64,000 nt of DNA, taken from Bacteroidales bacterium. Lineage in GTDB: Bacteria; Bacteroidota; Bacteroidia; Bacteroidales; UBA932. The notes beneath the pieces are model-generated. The model ran no database searches. It was not told where the DNA came from and saw only the letters and a program-made list of their open reading frames with translations. Every line of letters begins with the position of its first letter. Position 1 is the first letter of the stretch. Shown here piece by piece: positions 33,986-57,720 of the stretch. The DNA lies in contig JAFSBV010000003.1 in the NCBI GenBank assembly GCA_017437125.1, positions 1 through 64,000 of the forward strand. Reading direction: 5' to 3'. The translations under genes were made by a program, and so were the position numbers.

Positions 33986-33989
33986 AATA

Positions 33990-38413: not shown

Positions 38414-38443
38414 CAGCATCCAAGTGTTGGAACTCGGATGCTG
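38414..38443 (-). terminator. Terminator between the YhcG gene and terS
   Basis: CAGCATCC pairs with GGATGCTG; on the minus strand a T-rich tail follows. It separates the yhcG unit from the head genes, which then need their own promoter. Confidence 0.7.
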
Positions 38444-38466
38444 CTTTTGAAATATTGAGATTCTTA

Positions 38467-40827: not shown

Positions 40828-40987
40828 GATGCTTGAAGTGGAGGTGAGGATAAAAAGAAGTGGCTGGGTAAAATGAATGTGGAATATGTGCTTGCAACCA
40901 TTAAGCTCCACAAAGGGTGATTAATAGTTCTTCCAGCCACTTCTCTCTTCATCCGTTTTTAATCCATAGTACCTCCTTTGCTGATTG

Positions 40988-41825: not shown

Positions 41826-41841
41826 GGTATATGTGTTTTGA

Positions 41842-42480: not shown

Positions 42481-43351
42481 TATTATCTGGTTTATTGTTT
42501 CCTGCGTTACGGAGTTTCTCCATCATTCTCTGTCGTCTTGCTTGATCATCGCTCTGAATGATCTGACCGATTCGCTGGCCATATTGAGGTCTGCTTGCAG
42601 ATGGTTGTTTGAGTTCGAAGAGCCCAGCCCAGTTGTTTGCCATGCTTGTCTCAATGATCTGTTGGGCGATCGCTGGATTCTCTCCGGAGAGTTTCTTGAG
42701 GCGGGTAAGACAGCTCTTTGCACCAATCTCGCTCCTGTAACTCTCCTTGCGTACACGCTTGTATTCCAGCCACAGCAGCATCAGTTCTCGCCAAGGACTG
42801 TCTATGGTCTTGACCCACTGATCAATGCTGAATGCCTTTTCCTTTTCTTTTTTGGCGGAACTTTTTTCTTTTCCTTTTTTCGAAGAGGCACTACCGTTCT
42901 TTTTTCTTTTCTTGTTTTCTTTTTTCTTAAGAAGATCTGTATAGTTTAGGATAGGTGTTTCGCTCTGAAACGCACTCTGAAACGCATGATTGCCATTTTC
43001 AGCTGGCTGTGTTCCATTGTGTGTTTCATTCTGCGTTTCATTTTGTCCGTTGTTTTGGAACGCAAGAACGCCCTTCAATGAGTGAAGTGTGTAGAGCGAT
43101 GAGTTGTTGCTCCCTTGAGGAAAAACATCTATGAGTCCGAAACTCTGGAGGCGTTTCCTTGCTCGGTATATCGTTGTTCGAGGCATCTGGGTACGACTCT
43201 CAAGAATTGAGTTTGATGCTGCAAACTTCTCTTTCCATCCGCATCTGTTGGCAATGAACATCAAGGCATGCCAGAGGGCGATTCCGGATGGAGTGAGATC
43301 ATGAGTCTCCAGCCAATCGTAGAATAGTTTGATTTCAGTCAGATAGTTCAT
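42473..43351 (-). CDS. Phage replication initiator, winged-helix/DnaD-like
   Basis: 292 aa. The N-terminal winged helix (IALWHALMFIANRCGWKEKF, then RTQMPRTTIYRARKRLQSFG) fits replication initiators of the DnaD/RepO style. A long low-complexity linker of Asn/Thr and then Lys/Glu runs from about 115 to 190. A C-terminal helical module (SPWRELMLLWLEYKRVRKES) follows. With the DnaC-like loader it forms the phage replication pair. An origin often lies in the linker-coding part of such genes; its AT-rich, repetitive stretch at about 42840-42940 is a candidate. Confidence 0.7.
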   Translation of the reverse strand: MNYLTEIKLFYDWLETHDLTPSGIALWHALMFIANRCGWKEKFAASNSILESRTQMPRTTIYRARKRLQSFGLIDVFPQGSNNSSLYTLHSLKGVLAFQNNGQNETQNETHNGTQPAENGNHAFQSAFQSETPILNYTDLLKKKENKKRKKNGSASSKKGKEKSSAKKEKEKAFSIDQWVKTIDSPWRELMLLWLEYKRVRKESYRSEIGAKSCLTRLKKLSGENPAIAQQIIETSMANNWAGLFELKQPSASRPQYGQRIGQIIQSDDQARRQRMMEKLRNAGNNKPDNND

Positions 43352-43355
43352 GGGG

Positions 43356-43712
43356 TCAGAGATACTTTTGATAAAGTCTTTCGATTTCGCTCATTTCGCT
43401 CTTGCAGTCCTGCTGCAGCACAAGTCCTTTGTATTCCAGAAGACTGCTTTTGAGGATGCGAACACTTCCTCCCACATAGATCCTTTTGATCTTATGCTCA
43501 TCGCATAGCCTGTCCACCTGCCGAACTGATCTGCCAATGAATTCCGCAGCTTCCTTTCTGGTCATCTGAACATCCACTTCATAGAATTTTCCGGTATCCA
43601 GAGTCCGGATAATATTCACCTTTTGCTGGAGAATATTCAGTCCATTCTGGATGTCGTCAAGGATTGGTTGTAATTTCATTCTTGCTTCGTTTTTCTCGCT
43701 TGCAAAGGTCAA
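43356..43712 (-). CDS. Helix-turn-helix (MerR/excisionase-like) protein
   Basis: A 118-aa protein with an N-terminal helix (LQPILDDIQNGLNILQQKVN) and an HTH_17-type domain, TRKEAAEFIGRSVRQVDRLC, ending in a wing (IKRIYVGGSVRILKSSLLEY). Such proteins next to rteC act as excision/regulatory factors in Bacteroidetes mobile elements. It is the first gene of the early operon and its promoter region carries a large palindrome (43721-43769). Confidence 0.8.
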   Translation of the reverse strand: MTFASEKNEARMKLQPILDDIQNGLNILQQKVNIIRTLDTGKFYEVDVQMTRKEAAEFIGRSVRQVDRLCDEHKIKRIYVGGSVRILKSSLLEYKGLVLQQDCKSEMSEIERLYQKYL

Positions 43713-43720
43713 TAGTCGAA

Positions 43721-43769
43721 ATAAGGAAAACTATACACGTGTATATATACGCATAGTAGTTTTCCTTAT
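43721..43769. promoter_or_regulatory. Nested palindromes: candidate operator of the early phage promoter
   Basis: A 13-bp perfect inverted repeat (ATAAGGAAAACTA / TAGTTTTCCTTAT) encloses the 14-bp palindrome TATACACGTGTATA (43732-43745). It lies 8 bases upstream of the HTH gene start on the minus strand and downstream of the rteC-like gene. A phage repressor or the HTH protein may bind here. Confidence 0.6.
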
Positions 43770-43792
43770 AACAGGCTGATATTCAGCACTGA

Positions 43793-44373
43793 TTATTCGA
43801 CCTTCTTTTCTATTCGGTTACGAAGCGTGGTCAGATAGGAGGTGCTTTTTATTTTCCTATCCAGAATGTTTCGTTTCACATTACGAGGGTCACCGAGCTT
43901 GATGTTGAAGAATCTCTCGAACTCTCTCACGACCTCGGCAAAGGGTGCAATTGTTCCATTTGAGAGAGTGATGGCCGAATCCAGATCCAGAGCCACGAGA
44001 ATTTCAGAGAGGCATACAGCCTTGAGGCTCCAATGTAGAGGCGATGCTGCAGGAGGAGTCAGCGGAGTGAAAAGATCCGGATACGAGAGTCTTTTCTCGT
44101 TCTGACGGAGATAAATCGTCAGTTTTTCTTGCGATTTCTTTATGAAATAATAAAGATCCGTCCCCCTTTTTTCCTTCCGAAATACCGAAGGTCAAAAAGC
44201 AGGTCGTTGAAAGTACGGTCGATACCGAGATATCCGGCATCGCTGAAGAGGAACTCCTGCAAGAGCAGGTCAAATTCGCAGAACTGAGCCTTTAACTCAT
44301 CTGCATCAATGATGTGCTGCGACCGTACCGTTTGCATGAAACGGCACTCGGTCAAGTGATTGTTTTGTACCAT
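43793..44373 (-). pseudogene. rteC: rteC-like regulator, frameshifted
   Basis: The N-terminal frame from the ATG at 44373 (LKAQFCEFDLLLQEFLFSDA, FNDLLFDLRYFGRKKGG) stops at 44140. The C-terminal half continues in another frame (TDLYYFIKKSQEKLTIYLRQ, SLKAVCLSEILVALDLDSAI, TLSNGTIAPFAEVVREFERF). Joined at the A6-G5 run at 44162-44172, the two make one RteC-like protein of about 193 residues; one extra G would restore the frame. RteC promotes excision in CTnDOT, so loss may fix the element in place. It could also be a sequencing slip or a phase switch at the homopolymer. Confidence 0.7.
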
Positions 44374-44532
44374 GATAATGAGTGTTGGTTATATTGCAAA
44401 TATAGTCAAGGACTTAACAGGTTATAGTCAACATTGTTAATAACTATTATGGCACTAGTGCCCTATTTTGAGCCTTATTTTCTTGACATGGGATGTTTGG
44501 CTTGTTATTTTTGCGAAATAAGAATTAAAGAT

Positions 44533-44733
44533 ATGAATAACAGACAATTGAAGATATTGGGACTTCTAGGAAGTTACCAATATGAGTATCTAGAAACAGA
44601 TACCTCGGATTTGAAGGCTCTGAAAAGGGCAGGACTTATTAATGTTATGGAAAGTGAGTTTTCCCAAAAACCGCTTCACATAACGCTTACTAAGTTTGGC
44701 TTGGTAAAGTTAAGACAGTTGAAGGGTTTGTAG
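44533..44733 (+). CDS. 66-aa winged-helix-like regulator
   Basis: From the ATG at 44533 (upstream frame to 44434 is less likely): MNNRQLKILGLLGSYQYEYL, then LKALKRAGLINVMESEFSQK and ITLTKFGLVKLRQLKG, the helix-strand pattern of small winged-helix proteins. Upstream, TATTTTTG (about 44508-44515) with a TTG further up is a fair promoter. It is divergent from the rteC-like gene and is the only small regulator between the phage early genes and the Dnd operon, so it could be the immunity regulator. Confidence 0.5.
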   Translation: MNNRQLKILGLLGSYQYEYLETDTSDLKALKRAGLINVMESEFSQKPLHITLTKFGLVKLRQLKGL

Positions 44734-44757
44734 AAATTCTGGCACTCACCATCTTGC

Positions 44758-44783
44758 AGGTCTCATGTATATGCGTGAGACCT
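44758..44783 (+). terminator. Terminator before the dnd operon
   Basis: AGGTCTCA pairs with TGAGACCT across a 10-base loop, followed by TTTTAAT. The dnd operon therefore has its own promoter. Confidence 0.7.
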
Positions 44784-44837
44784 TTTAATAATTCGCTATA
44801 GGTTTGAAAATTATATAAATGTTCTGTGGAAAATAAT

Positions 44838-44932
44838 TACCTTTGTAAATTAGCGTTAATTATATCCGAATTATAGCATTATAAAACAATGTGCTGCAAT
44901 TTGGCACAATGCGATGCTATTTTTGTGCACAA
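44838..44932 (+). promoter_or_regulatory. Promoter/operator region of the dnd operon
   Basis: TACCTTTG (44838-44845) and TATTTTTG (44918-44925) are two possible -7 boxes. The perfect palindrome TTGTGCACAA (44923-44932) overlaps the second, and a related half-site TTGGCACAA (44901-44909) lies just upstream. This could be an operator; the usual dnd repressor DndB is not encoded nearby. Confidence 0.45.
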
Positions 44933-44946
44933 GCAAGGTATAAATC

Positions 44947-46278
44947 ATGTCAAAAAAAATAGATGGTATAATATCCGATATCAAGGAACAGTATCTGGAG
45001 AATGATAATAATATTCCTTGGATTATTGGTTATAGCGGTGGTAAGGATTCAACTGCTGTTCTGACTTTTGTGTGGAGAGCTTTGCTACAAATCCGGCAGG
45101 AGTATGGGCAAGATTCGTTGAAAAGACCGGTTTTCGTTGTAAATAACGACACTCTAGTTGAGAATCCTATCATCACAGATTATGTTGCAGAAGTACTGGA
45201 TTATATCCGTTCAGCAGCAATTGAACAGGAACTGCCGATAAAAGTTCAAGTTACGACTCCGTTGTTGGAAGATAGTTTTTGGATCAGTTTTCTGGGTAAA
45301 GGTTACCCTGTGCCAAATAATGCTTTTCGTTGGTGTACAGAACGCCTTAAGATTAAGCCTACCTCACAATTTATCCTCGATAAGGTTGATGCTTTAGGAG
45401 AAGCCATTGTGCTTATAGGAACAAGAAAGTCGGAGAGTGCGACACGAGCAAGGACAATTGAGCGTCATGAAATTAAGGGCAAGAGACTGACTAAGCATCC
45501 TTTGAATCCGAATACTTATAACTACGCTCCAATTAAGGATCTGGACATTGAGGAAGTATGGTATGTACTTAGTCATGAACCATCTCCTTGGGGATATGAT
45601 AATAATAAATTGTTCAGTATCTATGCTGATGCTAGAGCAGATGACTATGAGTGTCCTACTGTGATCACAGATAAAAGCCAGCCTGCATGTGGCCAGAGTC
45701 GCTTTGGTTGCTGGGTATGTACAGTTGTTAAGGAAGATAAGTCGATGACTGCTCTTGTAAGGCGTGGTAATGACTGGATGATGCCTTTGTTGCAATATAG
45801 GAATGAGATGGTTGAAGGTAGGAATGTTTCGGAGAATAGATATGCAACTAGAAGGAATGGACAAGCAGCTGTAGATGCGGATGGTAACAATCAAGGAAAC
45901 TACACATTCGAATACCGAACTCACATGCTTCGTAGACTTCTTGAGACGCAACTTGAAATGCAGAAGATCAAACCTCACATGGAGTTGGTATCTAATCAAG
46001 AGTTGGTTGCAATCCAGATAAATTGGTATCGTGATGGATTCTTCTCCCCAAAGGTAACTGAGATATATAACGAGGTTTATAAGAGGAATATGCCTTTGGA
46101 AAACATGCAGTATCAAGAGAGATTGATTCTAGAAAATGTTTGTAAGGACAATCCGGACGACTATCACTTAATCAACGATTTGGTGTCACTTCATAAAAGT
46201 AAGACGATCTTGATGAACAATAATGGTTTATTGGGAGATATTGAAAAGAGATTAGAAAACTATATAAACAGCAAATAA
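44947..46278 (+). CDS. dndC: DndC, phosphorothioation sulfurtransferase (PAPS-reductase-like)
   Basis: 443 aa. The P-loop-like SGGKDS is at residues 30-35, and the iron-sulfur cysteines are at 130 (RWCTERLK), 236, 248, 255 and 258 (CGQSRFGCWVCT). This is the DndC layout: it activates and transfers sulfur into the DNA backbone with DndD and DndE. The sulfur donor enzyme DndA is absent, as is common, so a host cysteine desulfurase (IscS-like) would supply sulfur. It is the first gene of an operon with dndD starting on its stop (one-base overlap). Confidence 0.92.
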   Translation: MSKKIDGIISDIKEQYLENDNNIPWIIGYSGGKDSTAVLTFVWRALLQIRQEYGQDSLKRPVFVVNNDTLVENPIITDYVAEVLDYIRSAAIEQELPIKVQVTTPLLEDSFWISFLGKGYPVPNNAFRWCTERLKIKPTSQFILDKVDALGEAIVLIGTRKSESATRARTIERHEIKGKRLTKHPLNPNTYNYAPIKDLDIEEVWYVLSHEPSPWGYDNNKLFSIYADARADDYECPTVITDKSQPACGQSRFGCWVCTVVKEDKSMTALVRRGNDWMMPLLQYRNEMVEGRNVSENRYATRRNGQAAVDADGNNQGNYTFEYRTHMLRRLLETQLEMQKIKPHMELVSNQELVAIQINWYRDGFFSPKVTEIYNEVYKRNMPLENMQYQERLILENVCKDNPDDYHLINDLVSLHKSKTILMNNNGLLGDIEKRLENYINSK

Positions 46279-48416
46279 TGTTTATTGAATCTATCATACT
46301 AAATAATTATCGTGCTTACAAAGGATGCAACAGGGTTTCGTTTGAACAAAACGGAAAGAATATCTTTGTGTTGGCAGGAAATAATGGATTTGGTAAAACG
46401 ACCTTCTTAACATCGCTAGTTTGGTGCTTGTATGGTAAATTGATGGTAGATGTAGATGAGAAGTTTCGTAGGGAAATCAATGATTCGCAGGGATATAAAA
46501 ATTATTCCAAGTTAAATCTAAATAAATCTTCAGCTGCTGATTTACTTGCAATGCAACTTGATAATGATTTAAGGAGACACATTGCAAAAACGGGTTATAC
46601 GGAGCAGCAGAAAGCGATAAAGGATTGTGCTCAATGCTATGTGGAAGTTAATATAATAGACACCTTTATTCCTTCTATTCCTTGTCGAAGAATATCCATC
46701 CGTAGGACATACGATTACTTTCTGGATAACGAGGTTGTAGAGGTGCTGATTGATGGCCATGTTAACGAGTTAGCAAAGGAGGTTGGATACGATATTTTTA
46801 TAAATGACTTCATCTTGTCAAAAGATATAGCAAAGTTCTTTTTCTTTGATGCGGAGAAGATCGTGAACTTGGCTGAAGTGAAGTCTGTCGAGGAGAAGAG
46901 GAGGTTGAGTACTGCTTATAGCGAAGTTTTGGGCATTAAGAAGTACGAGGATATTAGGAGAACACTGGAAAACTTAAGACTTAAACTAAGGAAGAATGCA
47001 GGTGCCTCTGTAAGTGTAGCAAAGTTGGAGAAACTATCTGCAGAGGTCGCTTCAATAGAACAAAGCATAGACAAGTCTATTGACGAAAGGTCTACGATGG
47101 ATGAAAGGATCGCAGCATTAAAAATCGAGAATGACTCACTACAGGAGCGTTTGATTCGAGAAGGAAATGCGATGAGTGTGGAGGAACTCGAAAAGCAGAA
47201 AGCCTTACTTAAATCTTTACAGGAAACAAATGCTTCTATGAAGCAGAAGTTTCGTGATATGTTGGATCTTGCTCCTTTTGCAATATCTGGAAAGTTGTTG
47301 TATGAACTTTATCATCAGTTACGAGCAGAACAGGATGCTAAGGCTAAGACTGCGAATGCGGATGCCATCATATATGCATTGAGATCAACACATCAAGAAC
47401 TCACTAGCAATATTAAGAATGCCGGATTAACAGAATCGCAGATTGAATTATTGACAAGCATTATTAATGATTCGTTTGCCCATCATGTCCCAGCCCAGAC
47501 TCCGGCAGGCACAACCTGTAAGGTCTTGTTAGATTATACTGCTGGAGAGATAAATGAGTTCCAAGCATTATACGATAACTTAAGGTTTTCTTTTAGCATT
47601 GCATTTAAGCAGTTAGTTAAGGATCTCAAAAACAATAGCAATTTCCTTATCAAAACCCAGAAGAAGATCCAAGCTGCAGAGCAGGATGATAGAAATGCAG
47701 AGGTCGCAATATTAAGGAAACAGAAAAATGAGATATCAAATGAGATATCTGATTTGGAAGCAAAGATTAGAAGTATATCGGAAAAGATCGGTGTTCTGAA
47801 TAAGGAGCTAACTGTAAAGAAGAAGCAGCTATCTGAATTGTCAAAAACAATGAGGGTAGATGATGTTGATAAAGAAAAGGATGCTATTGCCGAACGCATA
47901 ATAGCCGAATTGACAGACTTACTGCAGACATTGCGTCATAAGCGTAAGCAATCATTAGAGGCAAAGATAAAGTCGGAAATTGATGTTCTGATGCATAAGT
48001 CTGACTTTATCCACAAAGTGAGAATTGACTTGGAAGAAGATATTATTGATATTAATCTGTTGGATAGCAAAGGTGAGCTGATCAATAAAGAAAAGTTGTC
48101 AAAAGGAGAACAGCAATTATATGCGACAGCAATTCTTAAAGCACTGGTGGATGAATCTAATATTGAGTTCCCAGTATTTATTGATAGCCCACTGCAGAAG
48201 TTTGATAGTATTCATTCGAAGAACATTATCACCAAGTTCTATCCTGCAGTCTCAAAACAGGTGGTAATATTCCCTCTGTTGGGCAAGGAATTGTCGGCAG
48301 GAGAGTATGAGGCACTTCTTCCAAATGTTAACAAATCATACGTCATTAAGAACTATAACGGAGTCTCATCTTTGGTAGAGGTCGAGCCTTCGAAATTATT
48401 TGATACTTTGTCATAA
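46278..48416 (+). CDS. dndD: DndD, SMC-like ATPase of DNA phosphorothioation
   Basis: 712 aa: Walker A GNNGFGKTT (34-42), long coiled coils (residues about 240-330 and 440-570), the signature SKGEQQLYATAIL and Walker B with VFIDSPLQKFDSIHSKNI near 630-650. The head is DndD-like, with an N-terminal LNNYRAYKG. It is thought to open or bend DNA so that DndC/DndE can insert sulfur. Confidence 0.92.
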   Translation: MFIESIILNNYRAYKGCNRVSFEQNGKNIFVLAGNNGFGKTTFLTSLVWCLYGKLMVDVDEKFRREINDSQGYKNYSKLNLNKSSAADLLAMQLDNDLRRHIAKTGYTEQQKAIKDCAQCYVEVNIIDTFIPSIPCRRISIRRTYDYFLDNEVVEVLIDGHVNELAKEVGYDIFINDFILSKDIAKFFFFDAEKIVNLAEVKSVEEKRRLSTAYSEVLGIKKYEDIRRTLENLRLKLRKNAGASVSVAKLEKLSAEVASIEQSIDKSIDERSTMDERIAALKIENDSLQERLIREGNAMSVEELEKQKALLKSLQETNASMKQKFRDMLDLAPFAISGKLLYELYHQLRAEQDAKAKTANADAIIYALRSTHQELTSNIKNAGLTESQIELLTSIINDSFAHHVPAQTPAGTTCKVLLDYTAGEINEFQALYDNLRFSFSIAFKQLVKDLKNNSNFLIKTQKKIQAAEQDDRNAEVAILRKQKNEISNEISDLEAKIRSISEKIGVLNKELTVKKKQLSELSKTMRVDDVDKEKDAIAERIIAELTDLLQTLRHKRKQSLEAKIKSEIDVLMHKSDFIHKVRIDLEEDIIDINLLDSKGELINKEKLSKGEQQLYATAILKALVDESNIEFPVFIDSPLQKFDSIHSKNIITKFYPAVSKQVVIFPLLGKELSAGEYEALLPNVNKSYVIKNYNGVSSLVEVEPSKLFDTLS

Positions 48417-48417
48417 T

Positions 48418-48828
48418 ATGTTTACGCAAATAAAGACATCAAAACAAAACCGAGTGGTAGTAACTAATCTCAGTAGAAAGTTTAATCTGGGAGCAGAGAA
48501 TGTTGTCGCAAGAATTGCGTTGACATATTCTTTGTCAAAAGGGCACAAACTTTCCTTAAATGACATAAAGGACTCTCAAGGAAAAGAGTATAGCAAGAGT
48601 GTGCTGTTTGGAACAAATTATCCTTTTTATTTGGGATTGATATGCGTTCATTATAACCTGTATAAAACAGATAAGGACATCCCTAAGTATATTAAGATGC
48701 ACATAGATGATGGTCTGGAGTTGATGAATAAAGAGTTGTTGGATAACCCGAATCTTAATGGCATCGACTATTTGATTGATAAAATTGACGCTGGACTAGA
48801 CCAATTCTTAATCTATGATGCAAGGTAG
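48418..48828 (+). CDS. dndE: DndE, DNA-binding subunit of phosphorothioation
   Basis: 136 aa from the ATG at 48418, one base after the dndD stop; an in-frame TTG at 48400 is less likely. It has the DndE core: TSKQNRVVVTNLSRKFNLGA, NVVARIALTYSLSKG, EYSKSVLFGTNYPFYLGLI. DndE binds nicked DNA as a tetramer in E. coli. It overlaps the next gene by 14 bases, tying the modification genes to the unusual downstream module. Confidence 0.9.
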   Translation: MFTQIKTSKQNRVVVTNLSRKFNLGAENVVARIALTYSLSKGHKLSLNDIKDSQGKEYSKSVLFGTNYPFYLGLICVHYNLYKTDKDIPKYIKMHIDDGLELMNKELLDNPNLNGIDYLIDKIDAGLDQFLIYDAR

Positions 48829-51427
48829 TATAGACATATCAGAACTTTATGAAGAAGGCATAATCTGTGGAGAGACATATCTATATTGTGTTGAAAATAA
48901 TATCAATACAGCAGGCGATCTCCTAGATCACTCGTTTGTGTATGTTAGCGATTGTGTTGCATCTGAACTGAATGCACTGTTGTCAGAACTCCAAGATAGT
49001 TCTGCAGCAGATGTCTCTATGTCTGATGACTTGATGGATTCTGACAAAAGTGAAGGATGTGACAAGATAGAGGGTTATGTTTCTTATGTTCAGGCAAAAT
49101 ATGATAATGCACAAGAAGATTTAAAGTATGAATTGGATCTACTGTTGAGGAATTATGGAAGTGTCCATGAGGTGACTAGACATTTCTTGTCAGCCAAGAC
49201 CGCAAAAGAAGTGCAGATACATGAGGATATAGTTGCTTCTAATGCACTTCTCGATTTAGTTTATGAAGTGCAAACGTTGGGGAGGAGTTGCTGTCTTCAT
49301 GATCAGATGTTCTTAATGTGCACTGATGTGCGATGTAAGAATGTGTTGACTGCACGATATGAATACTTTGGAAACAAGTTTGAATTTACAAATTGGCTGT
49401 TGACATGTTCTAAAGTTGATATAATGAAAATCCCCAATGTGGGAAGGAAGTCCTTTAGTATAATATGGGATGCGATTGAGAAGTTGCGTGTAATCGCAAA
49501 TAATTCATGTCAAGAATTACAAACTAGTCAAGTACCTTTTAGTGATCCTCAGATTATTGAGGCTCCAACAGAAGAGATTGTAACCTCCTTTAAATTATTG
49601 ATAGAGTCTAAGCGTCATCTGCTATCTGTCCGTGCCAATAATGTGCTAAGTTCTATTCTAGACAATAGCTCATTCGAACAGGTCTTAATGCAATTTAGAT
49701 CTAATAATTTTAGTTTTTTATCTTCAAAGAATTGTGGCAGGAAAACAGATAAAGAATTAAGGGTGTTTAGGGATGAAATATTATCCTTGATCGGGACTGT
49801 TCCAGTTGAAGAAGTTGAAGTACAGATTGGATATGAAAAATATAAGAGCTTGCTGTCTTTCCCAGATGATTGCATATTTTGTATCCTTAATTTAATAGAT
49901 GAATTAAAGTCTTTTCCTTTATTTTATGTTATTCAACAGTTTATTGATAACATGAAGCCTAAAGACTATGCCATTGTACAAGGCATGCTAGATATTTACA
50001 ATGGACAGGAGCTTAAGCATAGGGAAGATATTGGTAAGGAGTTAAAAATAACAGGCGAGCGAGTACGACAGCTGCGAGAGAAAGTATTGCTCAAAATTAA
50101 GAACTTTATCATCTCAATAGGTAATACGGAAGATGTGTCTCACTATTTACCAAATAAATACGATGAGATAAATTTAAAAGAAGGAACAAATTTTCAAGAC
50201 AATTTTATCTACTGGGCTATCTCTCTCGTTAATAAAGACTGGGTAATTGTCGGTGATGTATTTGATGTGTTCTATAACCCTCATGGCCATCAAATCAACC
50301 TAAATGTAGTTCCTGTAGTATTATCTGATGCATATGATTTTAGAAAATTCGTAAGTGAATTTGATAAGGTATATGTGGAAAAAAGGACAGTGCCTTCAGA
50401 ATTGAATCTACAGTCTTTTTGTATGAAGTTCTTTAGAAATTCAATCCAGATCGCATTATTAGATGATATAATTTATGAGTGCAAAAGAATAATCCTAAGA
50501 TTATACGACTGCACATCGAATGGTGATATTATATTGTTGGATAGTAATGCTTATAGAGGACTGAGTGAGATCTCAGAAGAAATACTCAGAGAGCATGGGG
50601 CTCCAATGACTGCAGAAGAGATGTATGCTGTACTGCTTGAAAAATATCCGAATCAAAAATGTAAGGGTGCAAATAGTCTGGTTGGAAGCATTCACAATAA
50701 TCCCAATATTCGGCCGATGGGTAGGAGTCGTACATACTCTTTAAAGGAGTGGAATCTGGGTGAGATGCGTGGTGGCACGATACGAGAGTTTGCGGAGGAG
50801 TTTATTTTAATGCAGCCGGATCGAATAGCAGCATTGGAAGATATAGGTAATTATGTTAGACAATTTAGAGCCACTTCGACCAATTCAAGTATACAGGCAA
50901 ATTTGATGCTGGAGGCAAGTGGCAAGTTTGAACTATATACAAAAGGTGAGACGAAATACATAGGACTTAAGGGACGAGTATATGATGTCTCGTATATCCC
51001 TGCTGAGGAGAGTATGGTTATAGTGCGTTCTTTGGATACTAGCATACGATTATTCAAGGAGTTTGTTGAGCAGCATGGTAGGTATCCTTTTATTAAAGGA
51101 GAAGATGTTGATGAGAAAGAAAAGCGACTTAGGCGGTTTTGGAATAATGTTTTATATAGGCGTAATAGAGGTACCGCAACAAATGAAGAATTGCAGTTTG
51201 TTAAATATATAGAAGATACATACCCATATCATGATATTTCAAGGCATGAGTATAAGTGGCGTCAGACATATATGTCAATATGTAATACAATAGCACTAGA
51301 GGGTTGGGATGCATTAAACATTAATGAACAGCATTGGTGCTATAAGTATTTAAGGTTATTGAAACTCGACCAGCTTGAGGATTGGCAAGTCCCTCTAATG
51401 ATTAAATTACAATCGCTATATGCTTAA
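48815..51427 (+). CDS. 870-aa multi-domain Dnd-associated protein (HhH + sigma-4-like + HARE-HTH + HA-type)
   Basis: Visible segments, in order: two helix-hairpin-helix/alpha-CTD-like stretches (IMKIPNVGRKSFSIIW near 208-223, SFLSSKNCGRKTDKELRVF near 302-320); a sigma-region-4-like helix-turn-helix (REDIGKELKITGERVRQLRE near 405-424); a HARE-HTH-like domain (EEILREHGAPMTAEEMYAVL to RTYSLKEW near 587-648); and a C-terminal helicase-associated-like segment (FKEFVEQHGRYPF near 746-758, with LRRFWNNVLYRRNRGTATNE). HARE-HTH has been proposed from comparative genomics to be linked with DNA modification. It follows dndE with a 14-base overlap and precedes the helicase with an 8-base overlap. It is not one of the canonical DndFGH proteins. 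It may sense modified DNA, couple to transcription or guide the nuclease; this is inference. Confidence 0.65.
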   Translation: MMQGSIDISELYEEGIICGETYLYCVENNINTAGDLLDHSFVYVSDCVASELNALLSELQDSSAADVSMSDDLMDSDKSEGCDKIEGYVSYVQAKYDNAQEDLKYELDLLLRNYGSVHEVTRHFLSAKTAKEVQIHEDIVASNALLDLVYEVQTLGRSCCLHDQMFLMCTDVRCKNVLTARYEYFGNKFEFTNWLLTCSKVDIMKIPNVGRKSFSIIWDAIEKLRVIANNSCQELQTSQVPFSDPQIIEAPTEEIVTSFKLLIESKRHLLSVRANNVLSSILDNSSFEQVLMQFRSNNFSFLSSKNCGRKTDKELRVFRDEILSLIGTVPVEEVEVQIGYEKYKSLLSFPDDCIFCILNLIDELKSFPLFYVIQQFIDNMKPKDYAIVQGMLDIYNGQELKHREDIGKELKITGERVRQLREKVLLKIKNFIISIGNTEDVSHYLPNKYDEINLKEGTNFQDNFIYWAISLVNKDWVIVGDVFDVFYNPHGHQINLNVVPVVLSDAYDFRKFVSEFDKVYVEKRTVPSELNLQSFCMKFFRNSIQIALLDDIIYECKRIILRLYDCTSNGDIILLDSNAYRGLSEISEEILREHGAPMTAEEMYAVLLEKYPNQKCKGANSLVGSIHNNPNIRPMGRSRTYSLKEWNLGEMRGGTIREFAEEFILMQPDRIAALEDIGNYVRQFRATSTNSSIQANLMLEASGKFELYTKGETKYIGLKGRVYDVSYIPAEESMVIVRSLDTSIRLFKEFVEQHGRYPFIKGEDVDEKEKRLRRFWNNVLYRRNRGTATNEELQFVKYIEDTYPYHDISRHEYKWRQTYMSICNTIALEGWDALNINEQHWCYKYLRLLKLDQLEDWQVPLMIKLQSLYA

Positions 51428-53567
51428 GGATAAGAAAATTCAACATATATATTCCTCAAGTGGAACGGAATTTACACCGTTTCACTTCTTCAATGATGCA
51501 TTGTCAAATAGTGTCAAATTTGATCTAGGATTGGGCTTTTTTAGTACGGCAAGTATTAATGTCTTGTCTGTTGGCTTCGCAAATTTTATTGTCAATGGAG
51601 GAATTATGCGGTTATATATTAACCAATTTCTGTCTGAAGAGGACTATAAAGTGATATCCACCTCAGCACCATCTGATATGGATAAAAGAATCTTATCTGA
51701 TTTCTATAAGTTGAGGGAAACGTTATCGGTTAGAGACGAGCATTTCTTTAATTGTTTATCATATCTAATAGCAGAGAATAGAGTTGAAATAAGAATTGTT
51801 ATTCCTAAGACGGGTGGCATCGCACATCAGAAATTTGGCGTGTTTACGGATGAAAATGGAAACAAGATCGCATTTAATGGATCGCTGAATTTTACGGCAA
51901 GTGCCTTGTTGTCAAAGAATATTGAGGCGATATCTTGTGCGACCTCATGGGGAGGTGGAGCATGTCAAATTGCTGAATATGAGATCTTGTTCGATAAATT
52001 CTTTAATGGTAATGATAGCGATATAACAGTTTATAGATCTGAGAATTTTGAGCGAGAATTGTTAAGGTCTTTCCCACCAAAGGAGGTTGATGCTCTTTTG
52101 CGAGAAGAAAGGGAGTTTATTAAAACGATAAACACTAGGTATGATATTGTTGTTAATGCGAAGGACGGTGAATTCCCTCGATTTCCATATGCTGCAGGGG
52201 CATTTGATTACCAGAAGGCAGCCTATGAAAATTGGGTAAAACAGGGGTGCTCCGGTATTTTTGCAATGGCAACCGGAACGGGTAAAACTATAACCTCATT
52301 AAATTGCGTATTGGAAGAATACAAGAAGAATGGGGCTTATAGGATGCTTATATTGGTGCCTACGATTGATCTTGTGCATCAATGGACAAAAGAAGTAGGG
52401 CAGTTTAATTACCAAAATATATACATAGTTAATTCTGGAACAAACTGGAGGGCAGATCTGAATAGTCTGAAGGAAGATTTTGAATGGGGCATAGAACGAA
52501 ATTTCGTAATTATCTCAACATATGCATCTTTTGTCGATGCAACTTTTCAGAAATTGGTAAATGCAATTGCTGATGATAAAACAATATTAATTGCTGATGA
52601 AGCTCATAATGTTGGTGCACCTAGGGTAAAGAAAGCTTTTGGTAATCTCAATATTAGGAAGAGAATCGCCTTATCTGCGACTCCGAACAGAGCATTTGAT
52701 GAAGAGGGTACTCGAGACATTGAAAAACTCTTTAATGATCAGCCTCCATATTGTTATTCATTTAGCATGGAGCAAGCTATTAATGCCAATCGCTTAATGA
52801 AATACTTGTACTTTCCTAGGATTGTGTATTTGGATGATGATGAGATGGAAATGTATCAGATGTATACAAGAATGCTATTGAAATACTATGATTCTAAAAC
52901 CAAGTCATTCAAGAACAATACGGAAGTAAAAAAACTATTGATGAGGCGGAAGAATGTATTACATAAGGCACAAGATAAATACCGAGTTTTCGAGTCGGTC
53001 ATTGATGAACTTGTAAGGCAAGATTTAACAAGATATTGTTTCGTATATGCACCCGAAGGCTTCGATCCGAAGGATGATGAAAGGATTATTGAAAATATGC
53101 AGAGGGTAGTGAATGAGAAATATCCAGAGATAAAGACAAATTCCCTAGTAGGTGGAGATTCGAAACGAAAAGATAAGATCAGAGCCTTTGAAGAAGGGCG
53201 TATAGATATGCTATTTGCAATGAAGTGTTTGGATGAAGGAGTTGATGTTCCAAGAACAGAGGTTGGCGTTTTTACTTCAAGTACAGGAAATCCGAGACAA
53301 TTTATTCAGAGGCGAGGGCGTTTGTTGCGTAAGCATAAAGATAAGATATTTGCAACAATATATGATTTAATAGTTGTACCTAATTTTAATTATAATCGAG
53401 ACCGTTCAACGTTTGATATGGAAAGATCTCTAGTTAGAGGCGAATTAACACGTGTTGCATATTTTGCATCTCTTGCATCCAACTATAATGAGATATCGTC
53501 AACATTGGCTGAACTGGCCGATTATTATGAGCTTGAACTAAGCGTCCTAATCAATGAATTAAAATAA
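51420..53567 (+). CDS. PLD-nuclease/DEAD-type helicase, Dnd-associated restriction enzyme
   Basis: 715 aa. The N-terminal phospholipase-D-type nuclease half has HQKFGVF (HxK near 134) and FNGSLNFTASAL (the N/S after HKD). The superfamily 2 helicase part has Walker A ATGTGKTITS (near 283), DEAH box IADEAHNVGA (near 390), SATPNRAF (motif III) and QRRGRLLRKH (motif VI). This layout matches the annotated 'DNA phosphorothioation system restriction enzyme' family: it is expected to destroy DNA lacking phosphorothioates. It is coupled to the 870-aa gene by an 8-base overlap. Confidence 0.85.
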   Translation: MLKDKKIQHIYSSSGTEFTPFHFFNDALSNSVKFDLGLGFFSTASINVLSVGFANFIVNGGIMRLYINQFLSEEDYKVISTSAPSDMDKRILSDFYKLRETLSVRDEHFFNCLSYLIAENRVEIRIVIPKTGGIAHQKFGVFTDENGNKIAFNGSLNFTASALLSKNIEAISCATSWGGGACQIAEYEILFDKFFNGNDSDITVYRSENFERELLRSFPPKEVDALLREEREFIKTINTRYDIVVNAKDGEFPRFPYAAGAFDYQKAAYENWVKQGCSGIFAMATGTGKTITSLNCVLEEYKKNGAYRMLILVPTIDLVHQWTKEVGQFNYQNIYIVNSGTNWRADLNSLKEDFEWGIERNFVIISTYASFVDATFQKLVNAIADDKTILIADEAHNVGAPRVKKAFGNLNIRKRIALSATPNRAFDEEGTRDIEKLFNDQPPYCYSFSMEQAINANRLMKYLYFPRIVYLDDDEMEMYQMYTRMLLKYYDSKTKSFKNNTEVKKLLMRRKNVLHKAQDKYRVFESVIDELVRQDLTRYCFVYAPEGFDPKDDERIIENMQRVVNEKYPEIKTNSLVGGDSKRKDKIRAFEEGRIDMLFAMKCLDEGVDVPRTEVGVFTSSTGNPRQFIQRRGRLLRKHKDKIFATIYDLIVVPNFNYNRDRSTFDMERSLVRGELTRVAYFASLASNYNEISSTLAELADYYELELSVLINELK

Positions 53568-53578
53568 AACCACATATT

Positions 53579-53794
53579 ATGACACAGCTAGAATTACTTA
53601 AAGAGGTCTTGAAAGATCCCATGCTGAGGCAAAAGTACAATATTCCAGAGTCGGAATTAAACCGCATCTCATTTGATGTACAGTCTTCATATCCTATAAT
53701 AGAGGTGCTGAAGACGATTATTCAACAAAAGAGTGAGAGTGTCTCTGATGCTAATGTCTATAAGAATATTAAGAACTTATTTAGTGTAAATTGA
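53579..53794 (+). CDS. Small 71-aa Dnd-module protein
   Basis: Acidic helical protein (LELLKEVLKDPMLRQKYNIP, EVLKTIIQQKSESVSD). It starts 11 bases after the helicase stop and ends one base before the next gene, so it belongs to the operon. It is likely a small subunit or adaptor for the SMC-like ATPase that follows. No family is recognised. Confidence 0.6.
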   Translation: MTQLELLKEVLKDPMLRQKYNIPESELNRISFDVQSSYPIIEVLKTIIQQKSESVSDANVYKNIKNLFSVN

Positions 53795-53795
53795 T

Positions 53796-55985
53796 ATGTC
53801 AACAATAATCAGATCAATATCATTTAAAAATTTTTATAATTACAGCGGTGATTATGAAAATAACACCTATGAGTTTTCAGAGGGTATAAATGTCGTTAAT
53901 GCCGATAATGGTATGGGTAAATCCAAGTTGTTCAACGGCTTTTTATGGATTTTAAGGGATAAGGTTTATGATTCTGATGAGAGAAAGATTATTGACATCA
54001 CGACATCTCCACTGAAGATTCTGTCTGATAAAGCCAAAGTAGGTGGCGAAATAACTGTGGTTTCTGGTGTAAAATTGGTGTATGAGGATTCTAGAAATCA
54101 ATATGTTATTGAGAAATCAATATCGTTCACTAAGAAGAAAGCAGATGCTAGTTTTAATAATCAGAGAGAATGGAATATAGGTGAGGTAGTCACTAATGTA
54201 ACGAAATGCTCATTGTCATCTCTTAGCAGACCGATTATTGTCTATGATTTAGGAGAACAGGTTTCAATTGTTCGTAATCTAATTTCTCCGGCAATGCACA
54301 CATATGCTTTGCTACAAGGTGAGGCAATTGATAATATTGTCGATTTGTCGGATTCTAGCACGTTAACTTCAACTATTGAAACTTTAACTGATTTGTCATC
54401 ATTAAAGTTAATTGAAAAATCATGTCAGTCATTCTCTAGAAATGCAAAAAGCGATCTTGCCTCTCAGCAGCGAAATCAAGCCATAAATCTCGCAGCTTTT
54501 GATGAATATGAACATACACAGCGTGAGATAGAGAAGCAAATTACAGATGTTGAGGCGGAGTTGTCTCGATATATGTCAGAATATACGCTAGCATCTGAAC
54601 GAGCAGCAAAACTTCAAGCTCAAGTTACAAATACAGAAGATCGTATTCGCTTTCAGACTGAGTGTAAGAATTTAGATAAGAAAATAGCGGATGCCGATAA
54701 AGAACTCCAGAGACGAATGGCTAATATTAATAACTATATGTTTAAGCAGGCTATGCCTTGGTTATTAATCAATTCCGGTGATTCTGTTTCGAGATTTGGA
54801 AAATTGAGGGATGAGTATACGGTTGCTAGAACAGCAAGAAAACTTGTTCATGATCCCCAATCTTTTGCTTCTTTGCTACCCGAAGGTAGTCCGGACGATA
54901 TCTCATTAAAGAAGATGCTTGAAAATCATCAATGCTTTGTATGTGGCCGTACCTTTGAGGAGCATAGTGAGGAGGAAAGAAAGATTAAAGCATTGCTTTC
55001 AAGGTCGGAATCACATGCTAAAGCCGATGAGTCTGATTTGCATCTGTATTTTGATGCAATTCAAAGGAATGTGGCAGGATACATGAAAACTGATGCTATC
55101 TTTGGTGCAATTGCAGAAGAGAAGAGAGAGATATCACGCCTCACAGAAGAATTGAAGGAACTACGAAAGCGTAGGAGAGATGCTGAATCAGAGTATTATA
55201 ATTATGGCGGATCAAAGGATTTATTCAATTCTGATAAAGATACCAACCAGATAGCTCAATATGGAAAAGCTGTCAAGGATGCAGAGATGTATGAGCGTTT
55301 TATTAAGCAGGCTAAGAGAAGACTTGAAGATCTTAATTTAGATTTAGCTGCAGTGGAACGTAATATGTCTAATCTGGATGGTACTAAGAAAGTTCCAGCA
55401 GGATATCAAAATCTCAAAGATGTCGTCTTGGATGTTCAGCAAATTTTCGAGAACACTAGGAAGCGTATATATGAGGAGGTACTTGAAAAGCTAGAAAGGC
55501 GTTCTAATGATTTTTATGCCAAGTTAACAGCCGGAAATAATGTCATGGGTGGAACAATGGTGTTTGAGAAAACTCCATTTGATACCATTGAGGTTAAGGT
55601 TTTGACAGATACAGGAAGTGAGCTTACAGGTGCATCAGAAGGTTTCCAGAGAATGAAGAAGATTGCTGTTGTCATGGCAATTATCTCATCTCGCCTTGGA
55701 GGAGGACGATTTATGTATCCGTTTATTGCTGATGCTCCATTCTCGGCATTTGGTAAGAACTTTATAAATAACTTCTTTGAGACAGTTCCTGATGTATTTG
55801 ATCAAAGTATCATATTAATCAAAGATCTGTATGATATAGATGATCCAGAATGTCTTTCTGAAGATGGACATAAAATACTCGATTCTATGAGATCGGGAGA
55901 ATTGAAAGGAACGTTCTACGTGAACAGGATACCAGAAGAGGCTGATCCTACTAATCTTAAGACAACAATTGTTAGATATAAATAG
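53796..55985 (+). CDS. SMC/Rad50-like ATPase with zinc hook, second ATPase of the Dnd module
   Basis: 729 aa. Walker A NADNGMGKSKLF (near 36-47), coiled coils on both sides of a CFVCGR (CxxC, near 380) zinc hook, and a C-terminal head with GASEGFQRMKKIAVVMAII (signature-like) and MYPFIADAPFSAF, a Walker B whose usual Glu is replaced (DA). It is distinct from DndD in the same operon, which has no CxxC hook. The hook and split head suggest a Rad50-like clamp acting with the PLD-helicase as the nuclease. Loss of the Walker B Glu may mean a slow or non-hydrolysing ATPase. Confidence 0.7.
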   Translation: MSTIIRSISFKNFYNYSGDYENNTYEFSEGINVVNADNGMGKSKLFNGFLWILRDKVYDSDERKIIDITTSPLKILSDKAKVGGEITVVSGVKLVYEDSRNQYVIEKSISFTKKKADASFNNQREWNIGEVVTNVTKCSLSSLSRPIIVYDLGEQVSIVRNLISPAMHTYALLQGEAIDNIVDLSDSSTLTSTIETLTDLSSLKLIEKSCQSFSRNAKSDLASQQRNQAINLAAFDEYEHTQREIEKQITDVEAELSRYMSEYTLASERAAKLQAQVTNTEDRIRFQTECKNLDKKIADADKELQRRMANINNYMFKQAMPWLLINSGDSVSRFGKLRDEYTVARTARKLVHDPQSFASLLPEGSPDDISLKKMLENHQCFVCGRTFEEHSEEERKIKALLSRSESHAKADESDLHLYFDAIQRNVAGYMKTDAIFGAIAEEKREISRLTEELKELRKRRRDAESEYYNYGGSKDLFNSDKDTNQIAQYGKAVKDAEMYERFIKQAKRRLEDLNLDLAAVERNMSNLDGTKKVPAGYQNLKDVVLDVQQIFENTRKRIYEEVLEKLERRSNDFYAKLTAGNNVMGGTMVFEKTPFDTIEVKVLTDTGSELTGASEGFQRMKKIAVVMAIISSRLGGGRFMYPFIADAPFSAFGKNFINNFFETVPDVFDQSIILIKDLYDIDDPECLSEDGHKILDSMRSGELKGTFYVNRIPEEADPTNLKTTIVRYK

Positions 55986-55994
55986 CAGATACAT

Positions 55995-56501
55995 ATGAAT
56001 TACCAAAGATTTAAGCAGGAGATTGATAATAGAAAACCACGATACTTGGTTAAGTACCATCAGTTGGTAGATTTAATTTCAAGAAAAGGTGCGACCCAAG
56101 GAGGCGATTATATTCAATTTGGAGCCTATTATCAGACATATATGTATGCCTTTATGGTTGGGTATCACATCGGTGATTGTCAGCCTATATCGGGATCTGG
56201 AGAGTCGAAAGATTTTGCTGCAATATCTCATTGGAAGCCGATAGAAATTTCGGATTATATTCAGATGTTGATTTTGTCAGAGCCAGAGGAAAAGCTCCAT
56301 TTTAAATGGACTGATCTTGATAATATGGACGATGATCAGATTAAGGATTGCATCACTACTATCATAAGGCGTATAGAAGGGTATGCTAATGTAGGGTTTG
56401 AGTACATTCAGAAGAAGTTTGATGATGAGAAGGATGCATTTAAGTCTCCGTTCGTATTCGTTAACATTTTAAGAGAGGTGTCTGAAAAGAAAAAGATATG
56501 A
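55995..56501 (+). CDS. 168-aa Dnd-module protein of unknown function
   Basis: Soluble alpha/beta protein with aromatic patches (GDYIQFGAYYQTYMYAFMVG, YHIGDCQPISGSGESKDF) and a helical end. It lies 9 bases after the SMC-like ATPase. It ends ATGA, which would normally start the next gene, but that frame is broken (see next entry). No known domain; the conserved setting suggests a subunit of the same complex. Confidence 0.6.
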   Translation: MNYQRFKQEIDNRKPRYLVKYHQLVDLISRKGATQGGDYIQFGAYYQTYMYAFMVGYHIGDCQPISGSGESKDFAAISHWKPIEISDYIQMLILSEPEEKLHFKWTDLDNMDDDQIKDCITTIIRRIEGYANVGFEYIQKKFDDEKDAFKSPFVFVNILREVSEKKKI

Positions 56502-56966
56502 CTGACAGATTCGATTGTTCCTCAATTTTACATTGATGCGTTATCAAATCTTAAAGTTCATTATACTTCTGGTAAACCTGCACCGCATAAGGCTATCCTT
56601 TTGTTGGCTATTTCGGATCTGATAGAATCCGGAGTCATATCTAAGAATGAAATAGGAATGACAGAAGCCCTAAAGGTGGCATTTGAGGATAGGTGGAATA
56701 AACATGTGCCAAAGGATTCTCAATACAAAAGTGCTGTTTGGACTCCATATTGGCACATGGGATATGAAGAGTTTTGGCATTTCGTCCCTCTTGATGGAGT
56801 ATCGGAAGCAACGATTGCCAATTTAGCTGCTGGCCATACCGCCTCAATCGGTAAAATGAAGAGTCATATTAAGTACTCAACACTTGATGACGAATTGTTT
56901 AGGTTATTATCCGATAATGTGGGTCGCATAAAGCTGCGTGAATTACTTATAAATACTTGGCTATAG
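56502..56966 (+). CDS. Sulfur-binding-domain-like (ScoMcrA-type) protein, start unclear
   Basis: The open frame from 56502 has GKPAPHKAILLLAISDLIES, WNKHVPKDSQYKSAVW and TPYWHMGYEEFWHFVPL, the layout of N-terminal domains of McrA/HNH-type restriction proteins that recognise phosphorothioate DNA. No HNH motif follows, so this would be a binding protein without a nuclease. The start is a problem: the ATG at 56498 that overlaps the upstream TGA reads MTDRFDCS and stops at 56536. A one-base shift there would give MTDSIVPQ and the full protein. Either a frameshift, a non-ATG start (CTG at 56502), or a sequence error must be assumed. A TTG at 56601 would remove the conserved PHK motif. Confidence 0.5.
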   Translation: MTDSIVPQFYIDALSNLKVHYTSGKPAPHKAILLLAISDLIESGVISKNEIGMTEALKVAFEDRWNKHVPKDSQYKSAVWTPYWHMGYEEFWHFVPLDGVSEATIANLAAGHTASIGKMKSHIKYSTLDDELFRLLSDNVGRIKLRELLINTWL

Positions 56967-57182
56967 TGGCTCTGATGTCAGATCTTTAACAGCTTTCCGG
57001 ACTTCTTCTTTCCCGAAGATGCAGGAGAGTAGGTCAAGGCAGATATCAAGGGACTCTGATGCGGAACTGCGATCCTCAGTCGGAATGACAATATTAGGAT
57101 TGAATGTTTCATTGGTGCTTGGAACGGACTCAAAGTCGTAGCGGTAGGTGTAACCCTCAGATTTTATTTCGATGTATTTCAT
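56961..57182 (-). CDS. Unknown 73-aa protein, convergent to the Dnd operon
   Basis: A small acidic protein with a beta start (YIEIKSEGYTYRYDFESVPS) and a helical C-terminus (SLDICLDLLSCIFGKEEVRK). It overlaps the 3' end of the sulfur-binding-like gene by 6 bases on the opposite strand, and its upstream region is the prophage right arm. No family; it may be a cargo gene or an excision-related small protein, since it is next to the right att site. Confidence 0.5.
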   Translation of the reverse strand: MKYIEIKSEGYTYRYDFESVPSTNETFNPNIVIPTEDRSSASESLDICLDLLSCIFGKEEVRKAVKDLTSEPL

Positions 57183-57249
57183 TGCACGTTATTTTTAGTA
57201 CAACGGCAAACATAAACAACATAAACAAGAACTTCAAGATAACTCCGGA

Positions 57250-57268
57250 TTAACTTGCGTGTTCCAAA
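57250..57268 (+). repeat. 19-bp repeat, copy 2
   Basis: TTAACTTGCGTGTTCCAAA, the inverted match of 28847-28865. Here it is followed by CATCTTTG at a distance suiting a -33/-7 pair, so it could be part of a rightward promoter into a non-coding stretch. Confidence 0.5.
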
Positions 57269-57337
57269 GACAAATCCCATCTTTGCACTGAAAGATGTGC
57301 AAGTTCTTTGATAAACAGGCAGTTAAGGTGCTAAAAA

Positions 57338-57586
57338 GTGTAACCTGCGTGTAACCTTCAAATCCTTTCCCTTTGTAAAGGGCTGTATTTATGAGGGTTG
57401 AGATGTAAGAGTTCGAATCCCAAACGGTACTGACGGAGCTGAATTTGCAGAAATTTAGGTGTAACCTATTTTAGAGGCAGCGACCATTGGTTACGATTTG
57501 GATACCAGAATCCGGCTATTTTTTGGCGACTTTACCTGCTTTTTGTTAGACGGAAACAGGACATGAAACCGCCTCTAACTCTTTGA
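57338..57586. other. Integrase arm-type repeats, right end of element C; 57183-57606 otherwise non-coding
   Basis: GTGTAACC at 57338, 57349 and 57459, GGTTAC at 57489 and TAACTCTTTGA at 57576-57586. These are the reverse of GGTTACAC and TCAAAGAGTTA near the left att at 13308. No gene is visible in this stretch. Confidence 0.55.
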
Positions 57587-57606
57587 TAATCGGCATAATA
57601 AAAAGA

Positions 57607-57637
57607 AAATGAGGCAGTTACGAAAACTGCCTCATTT
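57607..57637 (-). terminator. Terminator directly after tRNA-Arg
   Basis: AAATGAGGCAGTT pairs with AACTGCCTCATTT and, read on the minus strand, a T-rich tail follows. It lies just downstream of the tRNA 3' end and belongs to the inserted element. Confidence 0.8.
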
Positions 57638-57643
57638 ATTTTC

Positions 57644-57720
57644 TGGTGATTCGGTTGGGATTCGAACCCAAGACCCACAGCTTAGAAGGCTGTTGCTCTA
57701 TCCAACTGAGCTACCGAACC
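57644..57720 (-). tRNA. tRNA-Arg (anticodon TCT)
   Basis: The minus-strand sequence begins GGTTCGGTAGCTCAGTTGG, has the anticodon loop CTTCTAA (anticodon TCT at 57686-57684), the T-loop GGTTCGAATCC and an encoded CCA end; all four arms pair. It is 77 bases. Its 3' end is the integration target of the elements to the left. Confidence 0.95.
57646..57664 (-). other. Attachment site within the tRNA-Arg 3' end (right end of element C)
   Basis: GTGATTCGGTTGGGATTCG, covering the acceptor and T arm. It repeats fully at 4850 and as 13 bp at 13308. Confidence 0.85.

Follow-up and report, generated by a model that had tools for sequence, protein, structure and literature searches.

Phosphorothioate (PT) modification genes joined to a pbe cassette form the described defence systems closest to the locus reported here. 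Xiong et al. 2019 (PMC6459918) reported dndCDEA-pbeABCD in Haloterrigena, which gave about 10^4-fold protection against virus SNJ1. In that system, PbeA has PLD, ResIII, and helicase-C domains, PbeB has 66 aa, PbeC has an AAA domain, and PbeD has 152 aa; deletion of pbeB or pbeD abolished the protection. Rakesh et al. 2024 (PMC10853773) equated DndCDEA-PbeABCD with the CxC ABC-ATPase systems, interpreted PbeD as cognate to DndE, and counted 936 bacterial taxa with DndD and CxC systems in tandem. We analyzed the first 64,000 nucleotides (the window) of contig JAFSBV010000003.1 from the genome of a gut bacterium (Bacteroidales), which carries an eight-gene operon of this type with an additional gene, encoding an 870-aa sigma/HARE-like protein, between dndE and pbeA.

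The locus contains dndCDE, a PbeA with PLD and superfamily 2 (SF2) helicase parts, and PbeB, a hook-bearing PbeC, and PbeD in order, as expected for DndCDE-PbeABCD. The initial annotation had presented it as a candidate for an undescribed defence architecture, a reading that we reject because four of the five genes after dndE encode PbeA, PbeB, PbeC, and PbeD, a PT-dependent antiviral cassette published in 2019 (PMC6459918). Identity with a characterized Dnd subtype, which the same annotation had named as counting against its proposal, largely holds through pbeABCD; the 870-aa gene is the remainder. The locus is a known Dnd-Pbe system with a recurrent sigma-like accessory that we did not find described in the literature covered, which is no proof of its being unreported. 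A protein of sigma or HARE type encoded between dndE and pbeA is not mentioned in the main-text portions covered of PMC6459918 or PMC10853773; in the latter, HARE-HTH is fused to a restriction endonuclease, and the one sigma match in the text concerns DndH. The titles and abstract openings listed in the literature searches, and passages of PMC12839542, PMC9523054, PMC7464106, and PMC11662687, likewise gave no description of this protein type.

We propose, with a probability of about 0.5, that the operon encodes a PT defence system with an effector-side accessory, in which the 870-aa protein would serve the Pbe effector as a DNA-binding subunit for recognition or sensing. By analogy with the published systems, DndCDE would mark host DNA with sulphur, presumably supplied by a cysteine desulfurase whose gene lies at another genomic site, and PbeABCD would block the replication of invading DNA without the PT mark. 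The 870-aa protein would act with Pbe and read DNA: it may supply DNA or promoter recognition to the effector, and may place or license both the nuclease-helicase PbeA and the pair PbeC-PbeD on their target DNA.

In another genome of the same taxonomic order (G476), locus L069 reads dndC-dndD-dndE-pbeA-pbeB-pbeC-pbeD, with dndE and pbeA three bases apart and the 870-aa gene absent. Because this otherwise matching operon does without it, we treat the 870-aa protein as an accessory. The open reading frame (ORF) listing and translations gave eight consecutive genes at 44947-56501 on the plus strand, with ORFs of 443, 712, 142, 870, 715, 71, 729, and 168 aa:

44947..46278, plus strand: dndC, PT sulfurtransferase, 443 aa (TIGR03183 419 bits, cut-off 290.4; PADLOC DndC 1.8e-141)
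46278..48416, plus strand: dndD, ABC ATPase, 712 aa, Walker A at residue 34 (TIGR03185 3.1e-65, below cut-off)
48418..48828, plus strand: dndE (Pfam DndE PF08870 6.6e-25)
48815..51427, plus strand: 870-aa sigma/HARE-like protein, accessory, parts recognized via relatives
51420..53567, plus strand: pbeA, 715 aa, PLD-type nuclease domain fused to an SF2 helicase (PADLOC PbeA PDLC02706 3.6e-247)
53579..53794, plus strand: pbeB, 71 aa, flanked by pbeA and pbeC (blastp 2e-11 to the equivalent-place L069 gene of 74 aa)
53796..55985, plus strand: pbeC, ABC ATPase with a CxxC hook, 729 aa (PADLOC PbeC 1.4e-23; blastp 8e-150 to the equivalent-place L069 gene)
55995..56501, plus strand: pbeD, 168 aa (blastp 2e-32 to the PbeD-position gene of L069)

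The motifs SGGKDS (residue 30) and CWVC (255) were found in DndC, and H136/K138, GSLNFT (154), GTGKT (286), and DEAH (393) in PbeA. The zinc-hook-type motif of PbeC is CFVC at 380-383. The PLD-helicase and the zinc-hook-type ATPase had been recognized correctly at the outset. For the 712-aa ATPase, the top PADLOC match was a PbeC model (1.6e-123), followed by DndD (2.7e-77); its name rests on its position and on the same gene order in L069. The 142-aa dndE ORF opens at a TTG at 48400, overlapping dndD by 17 bases; an in-frame ATG follows at 48418, one base past dndD. Neither PbeB nor PbeD had a family match of its own in the Pfam, PADLOC, and NCBIfam scans, and both were named from position and BLAST to L069, whose PbeD-position gene matches TIGR04062 dnd_assoc_4 at 1.3e-5, below cut-off.

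The dndC and dndD genes overlap by one base. The 870-aa gene overlaps dndE by 14 bases and pbeA by 8, and the later gaps are 11, 1, and 9 bases, exactly as first annotated; this coupling to both neighbors supports the recognition role. The operon was also rightly described as having no dndB or dndFGH, according to the family scans. The dndB (PF14072) and DndH (PDLC02684) models had zero matches across the 2.8-Mb assembly (about 91% complete), whereas DndF and DndG were not searched genome-wide. No dndA, the cysteine desulfurase gene, lies within the operon; two proteins matching PF00266 are encoded elsewhere in the genome (C48, 8.2e-135, and C76, 6.6e-33). Since housekeeping desulfurases may stand in for DndA (PMC10853773), its absence was not taken to exclude membership of DndCDE-PbeABCD.

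The domains of the 870-aa protein were identified through an alignment (A1) with 15 relatives. Among these 16 members (Pfam E<=1), sigma region 4 was matched in 14, alpha-CTD in seven, HARE-HTH (PF05066) in six, and the helicase-associated domain in five, with best E-values of 1e-9, 1.2e-9, 4.2e-7, and 1.5e-10, respectively. The 870-aa protein alone gave sub-threshold matches to sigma region 4 (0.003) and alpha-CTD (0.016) and none to HARE-HTH. Thus, the combination of HhH/alpha-CTD, sigma-4, HARE-HTH, and helicase-associated segments guessed in the initial annotation is supported through relatives only. By eye from A1, alpha-CTD-like HhH segments lie within residues 1-330, the sigma region 4 helix-turn-helix at about 370-430, HARE-HTH with a second winged-HTH-like segment at about 580-720, and the helicase-associated-like end at about 740-870. 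Against PDB, the A1 profile matched sigma region 4 structures (4.6e-10) and next alpha-CTD structures (3.6e-6). Within the sigma-4 helix, E415, R416, and Q419 are invariant across the 16 aligned members, and the five letters ERVRQ are identical in the host RpoD (compared over the tail of the 286-aa protein). In true sigma factors, this helix reads the -35 element. Sigma region 2 was not matched in the 870-aa protein, nor did it appear in the tallies of its relatives among the first 25 of the 46 families listed. A DNA-recognition role is proposed because the modules are of DNA- or polymerase-contact types and because Pfam, PADLOC, and NCBIfam detected no enzyme or catalytic domain in the protein.

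All eight genes recur in equal order, and with equal lengths except for the dndE start, in another Bacteroidales metagenome-assembled genome (JAGCJX010000023.1, locus L006), so the gene order is not a chance arrangement. Protein identities between the two copies are 98.9% for DndC, 95.8% for DndD, 97.2% for DndE, 63.8% for the 870-aa protein, 86.9% for PbeA, 91.5% for PbeB, 90.3% for PbeC, and 98.2% for PbeD. Over residues 1-360, the identity of the 870-aa protein is only about 40%, whereas the other seven proteins reach 87-99%. The nonsynonymous divergence (dN) was compared only in stretches with synonymous sites highly diverged or saturated. It was 0.41-1.12 for residues 1-360 and 0.11-0.23 for residues 361-600 of the 870-aa protein, compared with 0.01-0.21 for PbeA 61-715 and 0.02-0.13 for PbeC 1-600. 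This high dN relative to PbeA and PbeC supports the recognition or sensor role: the N-terminal repeats differ most, as would be expected if this part contacts a variable partner or target, and the ages of the segments could differ, given the saturation. Synonymous divergence (dS) forms a mosaic, low in dndC, dndE, most of dndD, residues 601-870 of the 870-aa protein, PbeA 1-60, PbeC 601-720, and pbeD, and high elsewhere. Allele exchange contributes to the divergence, as indicated by the synonymous saturation in the variable stretch and the mosaic operon. For the same reasons, positive selection is not claimed as the cause of the hypervariability.

Sigma-like genes beside pbeA were also found outside Bacteroidota. 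The tblastn search with PbeA returned 124 plasmid records, of which 40 were listed and 19, mostly the best-scoring, were opened (L092-L110); further Lactiplantibacillus plasmids and short matches were left out. Six of the 19 loci, from about four lineages, have a sigma-4 gene beside the pbeA cassette, which supports the recognition reading. In five of them it is the nearest gene of appreciable size upstream of pbeA (Ruegeria, 1026 aa; Pontibrevibacter, 1017 aa; two Rhizobium, 764 and about 763 aa; and Arthrobacter, 732 aa, with 318 bases before pbeA), and in Aurantiacibacter a 437-aa protein is encoded downstream of pbeD. The Ruegeria and Pontibrevibacter proteins share 72% identity, and the two Rhizobium proteins 84%. 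Pfam sigma-4 was over cut-off in the four plasmid proteins scanned (1.7e-13 to 4.2e-9), with alpha-CTD in three and over cut-off in two. The family profile matched all six (7.6e-24 to 3.4e-6), the matches falling chiefly in the alpha-CTD/sigma-4 half. In L093 and L094, the sigma-like gene overlaps pbeA and is separated from the dnd genes by an opposite-strand gene; in L103 and L104, dndD and dndE lie on the strand opposite to it. In these four loci, the sigma-like gene is thus associated with pbe and not with dnd. Sigma-like genes of Acidiphilium, Alicyclobacillus, and Roseomonas had no pbe gene in the stretch shown. On the Roseomonas plasmid (L116, 5089-12119), a 373-aa protein annotated as sigma-70 family is directly followed by helicase-related, hypothetical, and cytosine methyltransferase genes in a restriction-modification-like cluster.

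Within Bacteroidota, matches to the 870-aa protein were found in 20 of 393 genomes in the order survey and in 2 of 395 in the phylum survey, its own genome included in both. The protein itself had no match in plasmids, phages, or viral contigs. A subtype defined by the exact 870-aa gene was considered and dropped, as it was found in only two assemblies (the window and L006). Neighbourhoods were read for 20 relatives, from the 19 other order-survey genomes and G084 of the phylum search, several of them cut by contig ends. A relative precedes DndD-like and DndE-HerA genes in L026 (G084), L028, and L029, and in G478 a relative and this pair are probably present across two contig ends (L032, L082). 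No dndC was seen in the stretches read of these five loci, L029, L032, and L082 being contig-end cut. The gene set of L026, L028, and L029 is possibly a PT-independent Dnd offshoot. An ORF of about 60 aa lies between the sigma/HARE-like gene and the DndD-like ATPase gene in L026 (9750-15798) and L028 (4187-10291).

Five short members of 486-521 aa (L030, L031, L036, L037, L039) share a common Bacteroidales chromosomal setting by BLAST clustering, read as behind rpsF-rpsR-rplI (by eye from L030, by clustering in the others); they perhaps keep the ancestral role. In L035 (by clustering) and L041, the relative is the last gene of an operon that also encodes a HerA/mad8-like protein, a GHKL ATPase, and a weak radical-SAM match. 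The L041 operon (9010-17965, minus strand) encodes a 396-aa protein, the 550-aa HerA/mad8-like protein (mad8 9.5e-8), the GHKL ATPase (6.7e-10), the 651-aa weak radical-SAM match, and the 866-aa relative. PADLOC assigns it no system, and the operon type may represent a defence operon not yet described. The proteins of L043-L045 (287-289 aa) resemble ordinary RpoD, and L042 is a weak match (3.4e-4; 9e-51 with the family profile). The stretches read of L027, L033, L034, L038, L040, and L042 had no dnd or pbe match.

DndE is present in 17 of the 393 order genomes, and the other 16 were read. Apart from L069, an 870-aa-type gene was absent from the stretch read of all nine dndC-dndD-dndE-HerA loci and of three contig-end-cut loci; the remaining genomes (G607, G653, and, probably, G478) have the DndD-like/DndE-HerA loci with a family member. 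Lack of co-occurrence with dnd genes had been named at the outset as evidence against the proposal. Relatives do adjoin dnd or pbe genes, in a minority of the loci read. A tree of 19 family members places the 870-aa pair with L027 (97/96); that L035 and L041 belong to the same group is less sure (84/80). The DndE-HerA-linked members form a separate branch (84/94), together with three rows for which no link is known. The tree hints at more than one recruitment of the family, which the long branches make unsure.

Several results weigh against assigning the 870-aa protein to the Pbe effector. No sigma-like gene was found, by family profile and annotations, in 13 of the 19 plasmid pbeA loci, and such a gene is missing from five of the seven Bacteroidota pbeA loci (L069 and L088-L091, L091 having a shortened pbeA with an internal stop in the match), being present only in the window and L006. 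Evidently, then, there are Pbe systems that have no such gene. Alignment of the plasmid proteins with the 870-aa family is mostly confined to alpha-CTD/sigma-4, and Pfam HARE-HTH was found in none of the four scanned, so common ancestry of the whole architecture is not established. The 870-aa protein reaches no Pfam cut-off, and the divergence comes from one assembly pair with a mosaic operon, where a mixed assembly is possible. In addition, other relatives in Bacteroidota accompany DndD-like/DndE-HerA pairs, which is also consistent with a role on the Dnd side.

Such a role would make the 870-aa protein part of the modification side, as the target-choosing partner of DndD-DndE. The family members ahead of DndD-like and DndE-HerA genes in three loci, and probably in G478, point this way. 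We consider it improbable: those loci, partly cut as noted, showed no dndC, the gene is missing from the nine dndC-dndD-dndE-HerA and three cut loci in the stretch read, and in L093, L094, L103, and L104 the sigma-like gene goes with pbeA and not dndCDE. A somewhat likelier alternative, though still an unlikely one, is a transcriptional regulator, which would bind the promoter region and set dnd/pbe expression in place of DndB. The recognizable modules are transcription-linked, the sigma-4 recognition helix is like that of the host RpoD, no DndB was found in the genome, and the short forms (5 of the 20 relatives read), in their conserved chromosomal setting, fit a regulatory ancestry. However, the gene lies inside the operon, coupled to pbeA, and not at its head. 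Moreover, a sigma-like protein co-occurs with a DndB/DGQHR-type gene in L006 (a DndB-like gene, PF14072 9.3e-14), L093, and L094, which weakens the DndB-replacement role, so that the 870-aa protein is not simply a DndB substitute.

That the gene is a chance neighbor or a non-functional passenger is very improbable. Most pbe loci read are without an 870-aa-type gene, and the operon is probably on a mobile element with gene turnover; yet the gene, although it diverges fast, keeps its full length and its place in two assemblies, overlaps both neighbors, and has sigma-like counterparts beside pbeA in other phyla. A recognition or sensor subunit of Pbe is the role we favor, as a candidate.

The setting of the operon comprises two further features:

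4850..57664, no strand assigned: probable integrated element of 52.8 kb, operon at the right end, with a 19-bp perfect direct repeat
56502..56966, plus strand: sulfur-binding-domain (SBD)-like fragment, in frame after the pbeD stop (phmmer 7.2e-16 to PDB 8h0l SBDHga1, homology 56502-56960)

The repeat copies lie at 4850-4868, where no tRNA was found, and at 57646-57664, in the 3' part of tRNA-Arg(tct) (57644-57720, minus strand). Between them are a recombinase-like ORF (5060-6427, assigned by eye on the first 60 residues) and a phage-type region at 34.6-43.4 kb with portal, terminase, integrase, and helicase-loader matches. The GC content of the operon genes is 0.35-0.39, and 0.49-0.51 beyond 58 kb. 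Considering the bracketing repeat, the phage-type region, the recombinase-like ORF, and the end of L006 in the same tRNA sequence, the operon is probably mobile cargo of an integrated element. The range first annotated (44947-56966) comprises the eight real genes, to 56501, and a ninth piece, the SBD-like fragment. This domain type is described as PT-reading (PMC10853773). The fragment has no canonical start at its beginning, its counterpart in L006 is broken further, and it is probably a gene remnant.

Xiong et al. only speculate that a Pbe protein senses PT (PMC6459918), and Rakesh et al. dispute their no-cleavage mechanism (PMC10853773). A recurrent, fast-evolving, probably DNA-binding subunit linked to pbeA would offer a concrete entry to the targeting of PbeABCD and its restraint by PT, with the L069 cassette as a natural comparison, and would link Pbe with other defence operons carrying sigma-like proteins. 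A wider idea, which we hold to be rather unlikely, is that the 870-aa protein belongs to a widespread promoter-reading immune class lending RNA polymerase modules to effectors (Pbe, DndD-like/DndE-HerA, the HerA/GHKL operon, and MZA). If so, defence would be aimed at, or triggered by, invader transcription start sites, such as promoters where a phage displaced the host RNA polymerase, with the fast-evolving N-terminal repeats meeting a variable partner.

Compared with RNA polymerase accessory parts, the 870-aa protein has, as judged through its relatives, the same domain types (alpha-CTD, sigma region 4, and HARE-HTH, the last of which occurs in RNA polymerase delta). It differs in having no sigma region 2 match and in joining its modules in one chain. 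In the MZA system, too, a defence operon of several genes includes a sigma-4 HTH protein, MzaA (NF041931; termed a sigma factor in PMC9523054), and the three plasmid sigma-like proteins scanned match its sigma-4 end at 1.5e-19 to 2.1e-15. The DndD-like/DndE-HerA (DndEi) loci (PMC10853773, PMC7464106) resemble the operon in the family member upstream, in three loci and probably a fourth, whereas they show no dndC or pbe gene and their HerA motor is fused to DndE. The closest likeness is to the DndCDEA-PbeABCD/CxC ABC-ATPase system (PMC6459918, PMC10853773), which shares dndCDE followed by pbeA-pbeB-pbeC-pbeD in the published order and small proteins of near size (PbeB and PbeD, 66 and 152 aa in the published system and 71 and 168 aa here). 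In contrast to it, the present operon has the 870-aa gene between dndE and pbeA, no dndA of its own, and the SBD-like fragment behind pbeD.

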